The notes beneath the pieces are model-generated. The model saw nothing but the letters and a program-made list of their open reading frames with translations, had not been told where the DNA came from and did no database searches. The position numbers were made by a program, and so were the translations under genes. From Nitrospinota bacterium (GTDB lineage: Bacteria; UBA8248), in NCBI GenBank assembly GCA_009839615.1, contig VXPH01000149.1, positions 1 through 38,105 on the forward strand: a DNA stretch of 38,105 nucleotides. The letters are read 5' to 3'. Shown here piece by piece: positions 1 to 20,107 of this stretch (position 1 is its first letter; every line of letters begins with the position of its first letter).

Positions 1-3000
1 ACGCCCCTCCATACCCACACACCCGCGTGCCGCCCATCAACAGCCTGCGGGAATTCACCGTGGAAGCGGGGTTTCGGCCCGACCTAGGCGACGTGGATGA
101 AATCGAGTACGCGGCGCGGCGCGACGCGGCCTGGCGCGACTGGCTGGCGGGGGCGCTGGAGGGCGACGATGAGCGGCTGCGCGATTTTCTGGAACTTGGC
201 TTTCAGGTGTCCGATCTGGAGAAAATCCGCGACGCCCTGCTCACCTTGCCCGAATTGCGGGAGAATTTCCCCCGCGCCAGGGGCGCTTCTCCAGGTGAAA
301 TCCATGTGGAGATAGAAGAGGCGTTCGACGCCTGGGCAGAGGTGGGACGCCGTTGCCTGAATGAAGAAGACAAGGCGTTTCAAGAGTTAGAAAGAGCGAG
401 AAGCTGGCTGGAAGGCCTTTCCGGGCTTTCGCAAACGGAACTGCTGCGCGAGCTATGGAGTCCGGGTTTCAAGCTGAACAAGCGGGTGGGTTCGGCGGCG
501 AACTGGGGAGATTCGAAGGAGGAGGGCGGAGAAAACCTGAAACGCTTCCGAAGCGGATACGACGGGTTCCTGCAAGAGAGCGCCGCGCTTATCGCCCACG
601 ATGTGCTCGCCGGCCTTGTTTCGCTCGTCCGGGAATTCGCCAAGCTCTTCGAGCGGGATATGCGCGATGCGGGGCTGTTGTCCTATCAGGACATGCTCTT
701 CCTGGCGACGAAGCTCGTCCGGGAAAACGCATCCGTGCGGGGGAGAATCCGCGAGAGCATCCGGCATTTTCTGGTCGATGAGTTTCAGGATACCGACCTC
801 CTGCAGGTCGAGTTGATATTCCTGCTTGCGGGAGAGGGAGACGCCGCCGACTGGCGCGAGGTGCGGTTGGAAGGCGCCAGGCTTTTCCTGGTGGGCGATC
901 CCAAGCAATCCATCTACCGCTTCCGCCGGGCGGACATCGCGATTTACCACAAGGTGAGGGAGATGATTGAGGCTCTCCGGAATGGCCGTCTGCTGCATAT
1001 CACGGAAAATTTCCGCAGCACCCCCGGTGTGATCGATTTCGTGAACGAGGCGTTCTCGCGCGTCATCGCTCACGACCCGGAGAATCCCGACGTTCAGCCC
1101 GAATACGTCGAACTCGTCGCGCACAGAGAGGCTGCGGGCCCGGCCGTTTTCCTCATCAAGGAAAATCGAGAGGGAGATGAACCTGCCGAGGGCGGCAGGG
1201 TGAAAGAAGAAGACAGGCGCAAGGCCGAAGCCGCCTGCCTCGCTGCCGCGATCCGCGAGTTGGTGTGTGAGAGAAAAATCGAAGTCGAGGAGAACGGCGC
1301 GCGGCGCCCCGTCCACTACGGCGACGTCGCCGTTTTGTTCCGCGTACGCACGGGCTACGCCCAGTTCGAGGACGCCTTTCGCGCTGCGGGCGTTCCGTTC
1401 GTAACCGATGGCGGGCGCGGGTTTTACGACAAGTTCGAGGTCGGCGCGGTCCTCGCCGTATTGTCGGCAGTGGCGCGGCCCGGCGACCCGCTCGCGCTGG
1501 CCGCCGCACTGCGCTCCCCCTTGTACGGGTTCTCGGATGTGGAACTCGCCCGCTACTTCCTGAAATCGCGAGACCCGTCTGAAAAGATAAAAGACCCGCC
1601 CGAGGAGTTGCGCGAGGCGGTTCACGAGATATGCCTGCTCCACGAGATGAAGAGGGATTCGAGCGCGCGCGCCCTATTGGAGGAGATATACTGCCGCACG
1701 GGGGCGTTCGAGTTGTTCCTGGCCTCATCGGGCGGCGAGCAGCGCGTCGCCAACCTGCAAAAGCTCCTGGAGATGGCGCATGAGTTCACCGGCGACGGGA
1801 GGCGGGGCGTGGACGCGTTCGAGGCGCACCTGGAGGCGCAATACGACCTGGGGCGCGAAGCCGGGGAGCCCGAGGCATTTCTGGACGCCCATGGGGGCCG
1901 GGCGGTTCGCTTGATGAGCGTCCACCAGGCCAAGGGGCTGGAATTCCCCGTGGTCGCCCTCGCCGATATAGAGGGGCGGGGCGGTCGGCATACCGGATCG
2001 TGGATTGCGGATCACGGAAACGAAGCGGTCGACCTGCGCCTGGGTTCGAGTCCCCGACTCCTCGAATCGGAAGGCTATGCGAGTGCGCTCGAACGTGAAA
2101 AAGAGTTCGGCGAAGCGGAGATAAAACGTCTTTGGTACGTGGCGGCGACGCGGGCGGAGGACTATCTGCTCTGGCCGGAATCGAGCTTTCCGTCCTTCAT
2201 GAAGGACGCCGGGCTGAACGAGGGGATGATGGACGAGGTGATTCAGGCGGCCTCCGCTTCGGTTCTCGAAGTTTCGCCGGAAGAGAGTGGAGTACCCGAA
2301 CCCATCCTCCGGCTCCCTGACGAGGTTTTCCGTCCGGTGAACGGGGATTCGGGGAGTGTCACCGCGCGGCGCGACGCGCTGAAAGAGAAATTGAAACGGT
2401 TGAAAAAACCGGTCGAGGCGCGGAGACCTCTGGCCCCCAGCGGGCTGGCGAAAGGACCGGATGAGGAGGCGCCTGCGGTTTCGCCCGCGCTTGACGATGA
2501 GGATGCGCCAGAGGAGCTGGAGGTTCATGCGGGCGGGAAGGATTTCGGGAGCCTGGTGCATTCGATCCTCGCGCGGCTGGAGCCGCCGGCGCCCGAGCGG
2601 CTGGAGAGTTTGAGAGAAGAGGGGGTCGCTTGCGCCCGCGCGCTCGATTTAGGAGAGGACGAAGTGGCGCTCGCTATGGAGTTGATTCGAAATTCAGTCG
2701 AGACGGGTATTTTGGCGCGTGCCGCCGTCGCTCCCAAGCGCTGGCGGGAGCTTCCGTTCACCTTCGAGTTGGATGGGCGTGTCCTCCGGGGGTTCATCGA
2801 TCTGGTGTTCGAGGAAGAGGGAAAGCTGACGCTCGTGGATTTCAAGACGGATCAGGTCGCGGCGGGCGAAGCGAACGAAAGAGCCTCGTTCTATGCAAGT
2901 CAAGGAGGCGCCTACGTCATGGCGCTGGAGGCGGCGACGGGTCTTGAAGTGGGTGACCTTGTGTTTTCCTTCCTGCGTCCGGGCGTGGACGTTTCCTGCC

Positions 3001-3056
3001 CCGTCGATGATGTGTTAAGACAGCGCGTACGAGAAGCCGTGGCGGAAGCGGGATAG
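1..3056 (+). CDS. AddA-like UvrD-family helicase with C-terminal PD-(D/E)XK nuclease, 5'-truncated
   Basis: The frame is open through the left edge, so the GTG at 27 is not the true start; the Walker A region lies outside the window. Counting residues from that GTG, the visible superfamily-1 helicase motifs are VDEFQDTD (250-257, motif II), VGDPKQS (from 289, motif III), NFRST (about 328, motif IV), SVHQAKGLEFP (from 631, motif V) and YVAATRA (from about 704, motif VI). The C-terminus has a RecB-type nuclease site: D925 in GFIDLVF, then D938 and K940 in LVDFKTD, followed by a Q-x3-Y element. This order is typical of AddA, which with AddB resects double-strand breaks for RecA loading. About 150-200 N-terminal residues should lie upstream, where addB would be expected. 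The AddA family is well supported; a related stand-alone helicase-nuclease cannot be excluded. Confidence 0.88.
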   Translation, partial: APPYPHTRVPPINSLREFTVEAGFRPDLGDVDEIEYAARRDAAWRDWLAGALEGDDERLRDFLELGFQVSDLEKIRDALLTLPELRENFPRARGASPGEIHVEIEEAFDAWAEVGRRCLNEEDKAFQELERARSWLEGLSGLSQTELLRELWSPGFKLNKRVGSAANWGDSKEEGGENLKRFRSGYDGFLQESAALIAHDVLAGLVSLVREFAKLFERDMRDAGLLSYQDMLFLATKLVRENASVRGRIRESIRHFLVDEFQDTDLLQVELIFLLAGEGDAADWREVRLEGARLFLVGDPKQSIYRFRRADIAIYHKVREMIEALRNGRLLHITENFRSTPGVIDFVNEAFSRVIAHDPENPDVQPEYVELVAHREAAGPAVFLIKENREGDEPAEGGRVKEEDRRKAEAACLAAAIRELVCERKIEVEENGARRPVHYGDVAVLFRVRTGYAQFEDAFRAAGVPFVTDGGRGFYDKFEVGAVLAVLSAVARPGDPLALAAALRSPLYGFSDVELARYFLKSRDPSEKIKDPPEELREAVHEICLLHEMKRDSSARALLEEIYCRTGAFELFLASSGGEQRVANLQKLLEMAHEFTGDGRRGVDAFEAHLEAQYDLGREAGEPEAFLDAHGGRAVRLMSVHQAKGLEFPVVALADIEGRGGRHTGSWIADHGNEAVDLRLGSSPRLLESEGYASALEREKEFGEAEIKRLWYVAATRAEDYLLWPESSFPSFMKDAGLNEGMMDEVIQAASASVLEVSPEESGVPEPILRLPDEVFRPVNGDSGSVTARRDALKEKLKRLKKPVEARRPLAPSGLAKGPDEEAPAVSPALDDEDAPEELEVHAGGKDFGSLVHSILARLEPPAPERLESLREEGVACARALDLGEDEVALAMELIRNSVETGILARAAVAPKRWRELPFTFELDGRVLRGFIDLVFEEEGKLTLVDFKTDQVAAGEANERASFYASQGGAYVMALEAATGLEVGDLVFSFLRPGVDVSCPVDDVLRQRVREAVAEAG

Positions 3057-14427: not shown

Positions 14428-14806
14428 CTCGTCGTTCCCTGGTCGGCGTTCGTCGATGCGCCCGCGAAGGGCCGTTCTTCCCCTCGGGGTCATGCTTCCA
14501 CCGCCTCAGTATGGCACAGACGATGCGGCGGCGCTCCTCTTGCGCGGTTACGATTTTCGCGGGTATGATCCGCCTCTACACGAGGAACACGCCCGGAAAA
14601 ACAGGCGGAAACGGAAGGCCCAGCCACTGGCGCGACTGCAGCCGGTGAGACCGTTTTATCCTTCGACTCGTCCATCCGACGAACGTTTCCCCACGATACA
14701 TTCGAACGCATGTCCTCGTTCACGGCGCGATCCGATCCGCAGGCTCCGATGAGGTGAGGACCAAATACGACATGGCAACTCTCCGGTCACATCAGGGCCG
14801 TTCACC
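14428..14806. other. Gap upstream of the fused helicase, with a possible coupled mini-ORF
   Basis: This 379-nt divergent gap has no recognised gene. On the plus strand, GTG 14754 or ATG 14772 opens a short frame (from 14772: [12 protein letters not shown]) whose TGA (14808-14810) overlaps the helicase ATG (14807-14809) as ATGA. A GAGGTGAGG string lies at 14751-14759. This could be a leader peptide coupling translation into the helicase, but length and lack of known homologues make it weak. Confidence 0.3.
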
Positions 14807-17800
14807 ATGAGGGTGGACGGCGCGTCGGCTTCAGGGCAGGAAGATTCCTTTCGGCTCCGCTGCCTGTCGATAGACCTGGAGGTCAGCAGGAATGGTGTTA
14901 TCGACGCTTTGGGCGCGTTGCGCGCGGACACCGCCGAGAGCCTGACGCATTCCGGCGGCGGCATGACGACCGCTCTGGAGAAGCTCGACGATCTCGCCGA
15001 GGGCGCCTCATTCATTCTGGGCCACAACCTAATCGCCTTCGACCTTCCGCATCTCGCCGCTGCGAAACCCGATTTGCGTTTATTGAAGTTACCGGTAGTC
15101 GATACGCTGCGTCTGAGCCCGCTCGCCTTTCCCCGCAATCCCTATCATCGCCTGGTCAAGCACTATCAGGACGGCGGGCTCAGGCGCGGGCGAGTCAACG
15201 ACCCCGAACTCGACGCACGCCTCGCGCTGGAAGTCTTCGAGGATCAGTTGAAAGCGCTACGAGAGGTGCAGTCGGACCTGCTGGCGGCATGGCATTGGCT
15301 GACCACGCCGGAATATGAAGGCGTGGACCGCGCCCTGGACGATTTATTCACCGAGCTTCGCCGCTCGCGCCGCCCACCCGACGCCGAGGCCCGCGCGGCG
15401 ATAAACCGGCGGATCGAGGGCGTCGCCTGCGCGAGCTACGCGCGCGAGGTGCTGGCGGAGGCGGACGGGCTCGGCTGGGCGCTGGCCTACGCGCTGGCGT
15501 GGCTGTCGGTGGCGGGCGACAACTCGGTCATGCCGCCCTGGGTACGCCACCAGTTCCCCGAAGCGGGCGAGCTGGTGCGCCGTCTCAGGGACACTGCCTG
15601 CACCGCTCCCGACTGCGGCTGGTGCCGGGAGCGGCACGATGCCGGGAAGGAGCTGACTCGCTGGTTCGGTTTCGATGATTTCCGGCCGGAACCAACGGAC
15701 GACGAGGGGCGTCCCATGCAGCGGTCCATCGTCGAGGCGGCGATGAGCGGGGAGCACGTGCTCGGCATTCTGCCCACAGGAACGGGCAAGTCGCTCTGCT
15801 ACCAGATTCCGGCGCTCTCGCGCTACGACAAGACCGGCGCGATCACGGTGGTCATCTCGCCCCTGGTCGCGCTAATGGCCGATCAGGTCTCAGGACTGCA
15901 AGCGAGCGGGATCGGCTGCTGCGTGACCATCAACGGGCTGCTGTCGATGCCCGAGCGGGCGGACGCGCTCGACCGGGTGCGGCTGGGAGACGCGGGTATC
16001 CTTCTCATTGCGCCGGAGCAGCTACGTTCCCGTTCCCTCCGCCGCGCGCTCGCTCAGCGCGAGATCGGCGCCTGGGTGGTGGACGAGGCCCATTGCCTCT
16101 CGCAATGGGGGCACGATTTCCGGCCCGATTACCGCTACGTGGGCCGCTTCATCCGGGAGAAGGCGGGCGGCGGGCCGATACCTCCCGTGATGTGCCTGAC
16201 CGCGACCGCCAAACCCGAAGTCGTCGGGGACGTCGTGGGCCATTTCCGGGAGAAGGTCGGGGTCGAGTTGAGGGTGTTCGACGGCGGCGCCGGCAGGCCC
16301 AACCTGACGTTCGAGGTCATCCCGACTTCTGGGGGCGAGAAGTTCTCCCACGTCCACGAGGTACTGGAGTCGTACCTGCCGTCCGATGCGCCCGGCGGCG
16401 CCATCGTCTACTGCGCGACGCGGCAGGGCAGCGAGGATATCGCCGAATACCTGAAACAGAAGGGCCTGGCGGCGGAGCATTTCCACGCGGGCCTCTTGCC
16501 GGAGACCAAGAAGGACGTGCAGCGTCGCTTCATCGGCGGCGAGTTGCACGCCATCGCGGCGACCAACGCCTTCGGCATGGGGATCGACAAGCCGGACGTG
16601 CGCCTGGTCATCCACGCCGATATCCCGGGGTCGCTGGAGAACTATTTTCAGGAGGCGGGCCGCGCCGGACGTGACCGCGCATCCGCTCGGTGCGTGTTGC
16701 TCTATGTGGCGGACGACGTGGAGAACCGGTTCGGCATGTCGGCGCGCTCGCGGCTCACCAGGAGGGAGATACACGGTATCCTAAGGGCGCTACGCAACCT
16801 GAACAGGAAGAAGCGCCTCGGCGGCGAGGTGGTGGCCACGGCGGGGGAGATACTGGGGGAGGACGAGGAGAACGCGTTCGAGCGGGATTCGGCCACCGAC
16901 GATACGCGGGTGCGCACCGCCGTCGCCTGGCTGGAGGAATCGGAACTGTTGACGCGCGAGGAGAACGTGGTGCATGTGTTCCCCGCCTCGCTCCGGGTGC
17001 GTTCGGTCGAAGAGGCCAGGGAACGGCTCGCAGGTGCGAATATTACCGACGCCTATCGCAACCAGTTGCTGCGCATCGCCGAAGCGCTTATCGACGCTCC
17101 TGCAGACGATGGCGTCACCACTGACGAACTGATGGGGGTCTCGGGGCTGAGCCCCGATGGTGTGCGGGGCGCATTGCACGATCTCGCGCGGCTGGATATT
17201 TCCAGCAACGACACCGCGCTCACCGCTTTCGTCCACGCCAGCGTGGAGCGCAGCTCCCAAAAACGCCTGGCGGAAGCGGTGGAGCTTGAGACCGCCCTGA
17301 TCGCGCACATGCGCGAGGCGGCGCCGGACATGGGCAAGGGAGAGTCGTCGTCGCTGCACCTGCGCATCGCCGCTCAGAAACTGAGAGATGAGGGCCTGCC
17401 CGAACCGCTGCCGGAACGCCTGTTGCGCATCGTCCGCGGCATCGCAAATGACGGACGCGGCGAGGACGGTGGTACGGGCAGCCTGGCAGTGCGCAAGCGC
17501 GACGCGGAGACCGTTCGGGTGACGCTGCAACGTGAATGGGAAAAGCTGAAGGAGACCGCCGAACTCCGGCGCGCGGCGGCCTCACGCCTGATAGAGCATT
17601 TCCTCGACTGCCTGCCGCCCGGAAGCCGTGGCGTCGATTTGCTGGCGGAAACCACGCTCGGCAAATTGTTGGCGGCAATCGAGTCCGACCTGATTCTGAA
17701 GAGCAAGGTGCGCCATCCCGACAAGCTCCTGGACCGCGCCCTGCTGTGGCTGCACGAGATGGAGGTCATCCGCCTGAACAAGGGCCTCGCCGTGTTCCGC

Positions 17801-19966
17801 CCCGCCATGACCATCCGCCTGGATCAGCGACAGCGGCGCGGCTTCGCGAAGACGGAATTCGAACCCCTCGCGCTTCATTACAAGGGACAGGTACTGCAAG
17901 TCCACGTGATGGCGGAATACGCCGAACGCGGCCTCGACGCCATGCGTGAGGCGCTGCGCCTCGCGATGGACTACTTCACGCTGAAGGAGGAGGCGTTTCT
18001 CGCGCGCTGGCTACCGGGCCGGGACCGGGATATCGGACGCGAGACCACCCCCGCGTCATGGCGGGCCATCGTCGAGAGCCTGAAAAATCCCGATCAGCAG
18101 CGCATTGTTGCCGACGACCGGGAGCAGACGAACGTGCTGGTGCTCGCCGGCCCCGGCTCGGGCAAGACCCGGGTGCTGGTGCATCGCATCGCCTGGCTGA
18201 TCCGCGTGAGGCGGGAGGACGCCCGCAGCATCCTGGCCCTGGCCTACAACCGCCACGCGGCGGTCGACATCCGCCGCCGCCTCAAGGATTTGATCGGCGA
18301 CGACGCTCGCGGCGTGACCGTTCTCACCTGCCACGCCCTGGCGATGCGTCTGGCCGGGTTCAGTTTCGAGAGCCGGTCGGAGCGTCCGGATGATAAGGCG
18401 TTCCGCGAGGTGCTCCGCCGCGCCGGGAAATTGCTGCGCGGAGAGGGCCTGCCGCTCGAGGAGGCGGACGAGCAGCGCGAGCGTTTGCTCGCGGGCTTCC
18501 GCTGGATACTGGTGGATGAATACCAGGATGTCGGCAAAGAAGAGTATGAGTTGATCTCGGCCCTGGCCGGGCGGACGCTCGATGACGAGGACGGCAAGCT
18601 CACCCTGTTCGCGGTCGGCGACGACGACCAGAACATCTACGCCTTCAAGGGTGCCTCGGTGGAGTTCATCCGGCGTTTCGAGGCGGACTACGGCCCGAAC
18701 TCTGCCTATCTCACCGCGAACTACCGCTCCACGGCCCACGTCGTGGCGGCGTCCAACGCGGTGATAGAGAAAGCCCGCGAACGAATGAAGGCCGACCAGC
18801 CCATCCGCGTCAACCGGGCGCGTGAAAAGGACCCGCCGGGCGGCGCGTGGGAGAAGCTGGATCCTGTCTCACGGGGGCGTGTGCAGATCGTGCCGGCGGG
18901 CCGCGACGCGGTTCATCAGGCGCGCGCCGTCATGGCGGAACTGCAACGCCTCGCGTCTCGGACGCCCGATTGGGACTGGTCGCGTTGCGCGGTGATTGCG
19001 CGCGAATGGAAGTATCTGGTTCCCGTGCGAGCCTTCTGCGAAGCGAAGGGCGTTCCGGCTCAGATGGGGGACGAGGAAATCCCGGGTTTCTGGCATCTGC
19101 GGGAGACCCGCGCGTTCCGCGAATGGCTGCGCGCGCGAAAGCCCCGCGTCGTCGACGGCGCGGCTCTGCGTGATTGGATGGAATCGCGGTCGGTCGACCC
19201 CTGGAACGATCTGCTGCGCCAGGCCGTCGAGGAACACGCGCTGGAAACCGGCGGATCGGAGACGCCGGTGGCGCACTTCATCGAATGGCTGGCGGAGTGG
19301 GGACGGGAGGTGCGCCGTCGCCAGCGTGGCCTCCTGTTGTCGACCGCCCACGGCGCGAAGGGTCTGGAATTCGACCACGTGGCCGTGCTGGACGGCGGGT
19401 GGGACCGTATCGGACGCGGCGAAGACCCGGCCGCGCCGCGCCGCCTCTACTACGTGGCCATGACGCGCGCCCGGCAGACCCTGACGCTCGCATGCTTCGA
19501 TGAGCCCCACGGGTTCGCGGCCGAATTGGCAGGCCATCCCTCCGTGATACGCCGCGATCCGGTCGATCTCCCGCTTGGCCCAGCGTCGCTCGGGTATCAT
19601 TACGTTCGGCCCGCTCTCCGGGACGTGGACCTGGGTTTCGCCGGACGCCGGAGCGCCCGTGATCCGTTGCACCGCGCCATCGCCGGGCTGTCGCCGGGCG
19701 ATCCGCTCGGGACGCGCATCACGACTCAGGGCCGCTGGGAATTGCTGGACGGGAGCGACGGGGTAGTGGGACGCCTCGCCGGGAGTTTCGAGCCTCCGCC
19801 GGGGACCCGATGCCGCTCCGCCTCGGTGTGGGCCGTCACCGGGTGGAGCCGCAAGGCTTCCAATCCCGAGTATCACGACTCCATCAAGTGCGACGCTTGG
19901 GAAGTGATCGTGCCGGAACTCGTATTCGAGCCTGTTCGTGAGAAGCGATTGCATCCGGATAAGTAA
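14807..19966 (+). CDS. Fusion of DnaQ-like exonuclease fold, RecQ-type helicase and UvrD-type helicase
   Basis: A 1719-residue multidomain protein. Residues 15-150 look like a DEDD exonuclease: SIDLE (D23, E25), GHNLIAFD (D79) and NDPELDA (D136), although the usual catalytic His before the last Asp is N131. A small C-x4-C-x2-C knuckle (CTAPDCGWC) follows. A RecQ-like SF2 core has Walker A PTGTGKS (K328), DEAH (426-429), a TATAK block and QEAGRAGRD (615-623), then winged-helix-like segments. A complete SF1 UvrD core follows: GPGSGKT (K1120), DEYQD (1237-1241), [13 protein letters not shown] (from 1271), [10 protein letters not shown] (from 1513) and YYVAMTRA (from 1548). Both motors look intact. 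ATG 14807 is the first start after an in-frame stop at 14750. RecQ-UvrD fusions occur scattered in bacteria; repair or anti-phage DNA processing is plausible but inferred. Confidence 0.88.
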
Positions 19967-20107
19967 CGCACAGACGCGCAAACGCTCCCTCCTCATCGGT
20001 CGCGTTTGACCCCCCATTTCATGGACAAACGACGCACGAGCATGTAGATTGACGGCGCATTCATCGACTCATCATTTACACGGTTCTCTTCTCATTGGGA
20101 GTGTGCC

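Follow-up and report, generated by a model that had tools for sequence, protein, structure and literature searches.

The window (the whole stretch of DNA analysed, 38,105 nucleotides) carried on its forward strand a single long gene in which an exonuclease was joined to two helicases (Table 1). Its frame opened with ATG, ran for 1719 aa with no internal stop, and encoded, in order, a DnaQ-type DEDD exonuclease, a helical linker with four cysteines, a RecQ helicase, a middle region, a UvrD helicase and a C-terminal beta domain. An earlier note, made from the letters of this DNA, had read the protein as exonuclease, RecQ and UvrD, and profiles, conserved residues and predicted folds agreed with that reading. 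The gene had also been described as standing alone among metabolic genes; this was true within the window, where a TauE-like transporter lay on one side and a molybdopterin oxidoreductase on the other. When the window protein was searched against Pfam, no match was obtained in the first 290 residues, in the middle (641-1090) or at the end (1570-1719). No RNA element was matched in Rfam, and the leader upstream of the fusion gene gave no match to a promoter consensus.

Table 1. Positions in the window of the fusion gene, its domains and the variably present segment
Feature	Position	Strand	Evidence
Exonuclease-RecQ-UvrD fusion gene	14807..19966	+	Open frame, translation, full-length homologues
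DnaQ-type DEDD exonuclease domain, residues 16-160	14852..15286	+	Alignment, hhalign to RNase_T, Pfam over members
Helical linker, residues 200-300, invariant C208, C265, C270, C273	15404..15706	+	Invariant columns
RecQ-family SF2 helicase core, residues 300-640	15704..16726	+	TIGR00614, Pfam, Foldseek
Family-specific middle region, residues 641-1090, mostly helical	16727..18076	+	No Pfam match, AF2 model
UvrD-family SF1 helicase, residues 1094-1563	18086..19495	+	PF00580, PF13361, Foldseek
C-terminal all-beta domain, residues 1633-1709	19703..19933	+	AF2 strands; conserved W and Pro/Glu positions
Segment in window and congener G002, missing between the same neighbours in G001 and G004	14535..19986		blastn

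Exonuclease domain and cysteine linker

The acidic residues of the exonuclease were essentially invariant among close members, as D79 and D136 occurred in 76 of 76 aligned sequences and D23 and E25 in 75 of 76, with one gap. These four residues had been noticed before, together with N131 in place of the usual catalytic His, whose position precedes the last Asp by five residues. Of the 76 sequences, 73 had Asn at position 131 and three had Ser. Asn also occupied the His position in most relatives of ~30% identity, and the motif N-(N/D)-P-x-x-D was common to those from Bacteroides, Arcobacteraceae and predicted mobile elements. Conservation of the Asn across the family ruled out a damaged exonuclease site. 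The acidic residues were retained in two Nostocales relatives; the last DEDD Asp was replaced by Cys in an element copy (L123), and no exonuclease domain aligned in L118.

The window protein alone had no significant Pfam match in its exonuclease region, and Pfam searches over family members gave weak matches to RNase_T (14 of 61) and DNA_pol_B_exo1 (19 of 61). In hhalign, the exonuclease profile matched DnaQ-type RNase_T domains drawn from related genomes with 97.3% probability (97.7% with a deeper profile), DNA_pol_A_exo1 with 64-86%, and the negative control, RNase HI, with 0.2-0.3%. In the alignment to RNase_T the acidic motifs lined up, and N131 fell where the His stands. Because of the profile-profile match of 97.3% against 0.2-0.3% for the control, the N-terminal domain is, as judged from sequence, DnaQ-like, with Asn-for-His as a family rule. 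The profile returned nothing significant against PDB sequences, and all 50 Foldseek matches listed for a model of residues 1-760 were RecQ-type, so that this search was silent on the exonuclease. H114 and K118 were invariant and adjoined a low-confidence loop of the AF2 model, and either might substitute for the missing His. A fixed Asn replacing the DEDDh His raises the question of water activation by the exonuclease.

In the linker, the arrangement C265-x4-C270-x2-C273 plus C208, which the earlier note had called a Cys knuckle, was invariant at all four positions in 62 close members and was retained in Bacteroides-type relatives. These cysteines likely form a metal site, either zinc or iron-sulphur (Fe-S). 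The site was missing in the Nostoc, Calothrix and Aliarcobacter types (L097, L099, L100), indicating that it is inessential to the architecture.

Helicase motors, middle region and C-terminal domain

Two complete motors with intact Walker A and B motifs had been claimed for this protein, and both were borne out by profiles and invariant motifs. The RecQ core scored 312 bits against TIGR00614 (cut-off 219.8) over residues 302-640, and the Pfam DEAD and Helicase_C models were also matched above cut-off. K328 lay in an invariant Walker A motif, DEAH at 426-429 formed an invariant Walker B motif, and the aromatic-rich loop WGHDFRPDY was invariant or almost so among close members. In a Foldseek search of PDB structures, the predicted structure matched the RecQ catalytic core with an E-value of 5.7e-27. 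TIGR01389, the equivalog of full-length bacterial RecQ, reached 335.9 bits, below its cut-off of 640.2. HRDC gave no Pfam match in the protein, nor any across the genome at a threshold of E 0.001, and no RecQ zinc-binding cysteines were present, as residues 640-760 held no Cys at all. The AF2 models had mean pLDDT values of 84 and 85.

The UvrD region matched both of its Pfam models above cut-off, with K1120 in an invariant Walker A motif and DEYQ at 1237-1240 as an invariant Walker B motif, and its predicted structure matched UvrD of the PDB in Foldseek at E 2.9e-21. In two roseobacter-type homologues (L066, 14648-15538; L080, 14660-15577), a C-terminal extension of more than 100 residues reached beyond the beta domain.

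Family size and selection

Relatives were encoded in at least 583 genome stretches in the genome scan, some of which may match one motor alone through motif sharing. The best 80 of these were mostly full length, with 51-85% identity, and came from proteobacteria, Chloroflexota, Acidobacteriota, cyanobacteria, Actinomycetota, Binatota and others; relatives of ~30% identity in Bacteroides and Arcobacteraceae had the same domain order. Intact full-length copies included those on finished isolate chromosomes and plasmids. About 6 of the 80 sampled loci looked broken (L009, L022, L038, L060, L068, L079), in that the frame broke while homology continued, which reflects recent decay or assembly errors. 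Comparison with the congener copy gave a dN/dS of 0.21 overall and a lowest value of 0.13 in the exonuclease, indicating that all parts are under selection.

Members of ~1700 aa are named RecQ family ATP-dependent DNA helicase in RefSeq, a name that records the RecQ part alone, and to our knowledge no function is known for these proteins. Neither the NCBIfam nor the PADLOC version searched contained a model of the fusion architecture, and no paper on it was found among the open-access papers searched. The parts are known already, and the joined architecture, a multi-domain helicase-nuclease, has no name beyond that of RecQ family helicase.

Presence, absence and horizontal spread

Among seven genomes of the genus, the whole gene was found in the window's own genome and in G002, and a piece of it at a contig end in G005; 11 further genomes, from other genera of the family, held no full-length copy. 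Homology to the flanks in G001 and G004 stopped at 14534 and resumed at 19987 or 20010; at these empty sites, about 306 and 33 bases, free of genes, separated the two blocks. The window's genome held two more copies: an intact one of 51% identity (L107, G000:C222:932-6082, minus strand) and a broken one of 82% identity (L108, G000:C65:942-3136, plus strand). In two other well-sampled genera, family-specific probes placed the gene in 4 of 60 and 5 of 60 species; the first probe was 28 residues long, and its matches sat in frames of 1462-1745 residues.

Plasmids, both conjugative and mobilizable, carried homologues, and 24 plasmid records covered at least 80% of the query. On pACIB the homologue adjoined ParA/ParB and replication genes, and IMG/VR predicted viral contigs with homologues also carried integrases, methyltransferases and ParB. 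A search of 50,697 phage records returned no full-length copy, and a phage gene was rejected on that basis. In the protein tree, phyla were mixed, and the window sequence clustered with Acidobacteriota, Binatota and a Rhodobacter bin; bins may contain foreign contigs, so not every mixed-phylum branch is a transfer. The gene is thus accessory, with a patchy spread rather than broad vertical inheritance. The suggestion in the earlier note that it resembled accessory or defence genes was strengthened by presence and absence at the locus, patchy spread, carriage on plasmids and elements, and defence genes beside some loci, although its connection with defence is circumstantial.

Gene neighbourhoods

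No constant partner was found in 82 loci, the biggest shared family being ABC transporters (14 of 82), and a conserved operon partner was rejected, as was a fixed place in repair operons. Many copies, including that of the window, lay among ordinary or housekeeping genes, and many chromosomal copies, again including that of the window, had no element genes nearby.

The ORFs of the nearest neighbours matched 136 PADLOC models and included a type IV restriction enzyme, a defence reverse transcriptase, AbiEii, a CBASS-type cyclase, HNH and PDC candidates. ORFs 6-10 kb away were similar, with 99 models including Zorya A, Cas8g and type I specificity proteins. A random control of 134 ORFs from ten host genomes matched 23 models, mainly housekeeping look-alikes (cysteine desulphurase, ThiF types); we take its DndA, SspA and E1-E2 matches to be such look-alikes. 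The comparison counted families and not loci, and because PADLOC models are redundant, family counts overstate the contrast and per-protein counts differ less. The neighbours included defence genes more specific than those of the control; this excess is qualitative, and the connection with defence circumstantial. At single loci, type I restriction genes lay alongside one copy and type I-D CRISPR genes ~4 kb from another, both within 12 kb; in L111 the homologue lay beside ResIII and a DNA methylase. In L123 (5174-18821), a conflict cluster comprised a SMEK-domain protein, the fusion, a RhuM protein and an AEP-TOTE primase-helicase-PLD protein.

Comparison with known systems

The fusion resembled WRN (the Werner protein) in that a DnaQ-like exonuclease precedes the RecQ core on the same chain. 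It differed in that WRN lacks a UvrD motor and has RQC and HRDC domains that were not found in the fusion, and in that the exonuclease of the fusion was nearer RNase_T (97%) than DNA_pol_A_exo1 (64-86%), the type that includes WRN. RecBCD, AddAB and AdnAB likewise combine two motors and a nuclease per machine, and the UvrD half of the fusion matched AdnB and RecB in fold; however, the fusion is one chain, its nuclease is DEDD rather than PD-(D/E)XK, one of its motors is an SF2 RecQ, and both motors are expected to run 3' to 5'.

Gabija GajB shared the SF1 UvrD core (GajB models matched the UvrD region, with a fold match to 8sm3) and a mobile setting, with defence genes beside some of the fusion loci, but GajB partners the GajA nuclease and has neither RecQ nor exonuclease in its chain; no GajA partner recurred in the 82 loci. 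DpdF and PsyrT/RqlH shared the RecQ-like core, and DpdF was the best PADLOC match (E 1.6e-113). That match spanned residues 276-694 alone, UvrD and exonuclease are absent from these proteins, and neither a Dpd cluster nor a PsyrA-type partner recurred in the 82 loci. The DpdF equivalog NF041063 scored 195.6 bits, below 550, and the best PADLOC matches to the fusion were generic helicase models.

Proposed function

In both the RecQ and the UvrD family the motor travels 3' to 5', the direction in which exonucleases of the DnaQ type also degrade DNA. A chain with two motors of this polarity could not follow both strands of a duplex one way and would suit the opening of a branch, gap or fork from both strands. 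The motors would load on single-stranded DNA beside ends, gaps or branches and start to unwind; if each sat on a different strand of a branch, they would travel away from each other and pull it open, unlike RecB and RecD, which run parallel. Alternatively, the two motors may take turns. Dismantling of RecA filaments, raised in the earlier note, is a UvrD property that the fusion may share. The DEDD exonuclease would afterwards trim the exposed 3' strand.

We propose that the fusion is a horizontally mobile, stand-alone nuclease-helicase that would most likely destroy or block foreign DNA, such as phage or plasmid replication intermediates, a proposal to which we give an even chance. The domains, the conserved catalytic residues, the purifying selection, the variable presence and the horizontal spread are observations; the activities, their polarity, the substrate and a selected role in defence are inferred from them and from the families of the parts. 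The absence of a constant partner, the ordinary genes around many copies and the generic nature of the PADLOC matches speak against it. Accessory DNA repair, in which a bacterial WRN counterpart joined to UvrD would handle stalled forks, gaps and recombination joints under some stresses, seems rather unlikely. The exonuclease-RecQ order as in WRN, the nature of RecQ and UvrD as repair motors, the strong constraint on sequence and the many copies among housekeeping genes all favor such a role; patchiness within genera, gain or loss at one locus, carriage on plasmids and integrase-bearing elements and the lack of a repair operon argue against it. Spread and mobility, rather than any phenotype, led us to prefer defence to repair. 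Patchy spread is compatible with accessory repair or element maintenance as well.

A role for the carrier elements themselves, aiding the replication, segregation or anti-defence of plasmids and integrative elements, appears improbable. The position of the homologue on pACIB and its carriage by conjugative or mobilizable plasmids and integrase-bearing contigs are consistent with it, but many chromosomal copies have no element genes close by, and the phage records held no full-length copy. Least credible by far was a relic or artefact, that is, a chance fusion or assembly join with no selected function: the broken loci, and one of the three copies in the window's own genome, would suit it, but the many intact copies and the low dN/dS refuted it, and the fusion is no chance join. 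Within the defence reading, we suggest only tentatively a single-gene anti-invader machine of new design, in which motors of the same polarity from two superfamilies and an Asn-type DEDD exonuclease would, unaided, open and degrade branched foreign DNA in about ten phyla.

The fusion is a common, mobile, one-gene putative nuclease-helicase with two motors whose role is unnamed in annotation. A role in defence would make it a single-protein equivalent of multi-gene helicase-nuclease systems, and a role in repair a WRN-like enzyme of bacteria.

Near the start of the window (27-3056, plus strand), another gene encoded a UvrD helicase whose C-terminal part was a PD-(D/E)XK nuclease, AddA-like in its make-up, indicating that the host owns an ordinary helicase-nuclease besides the fusion.
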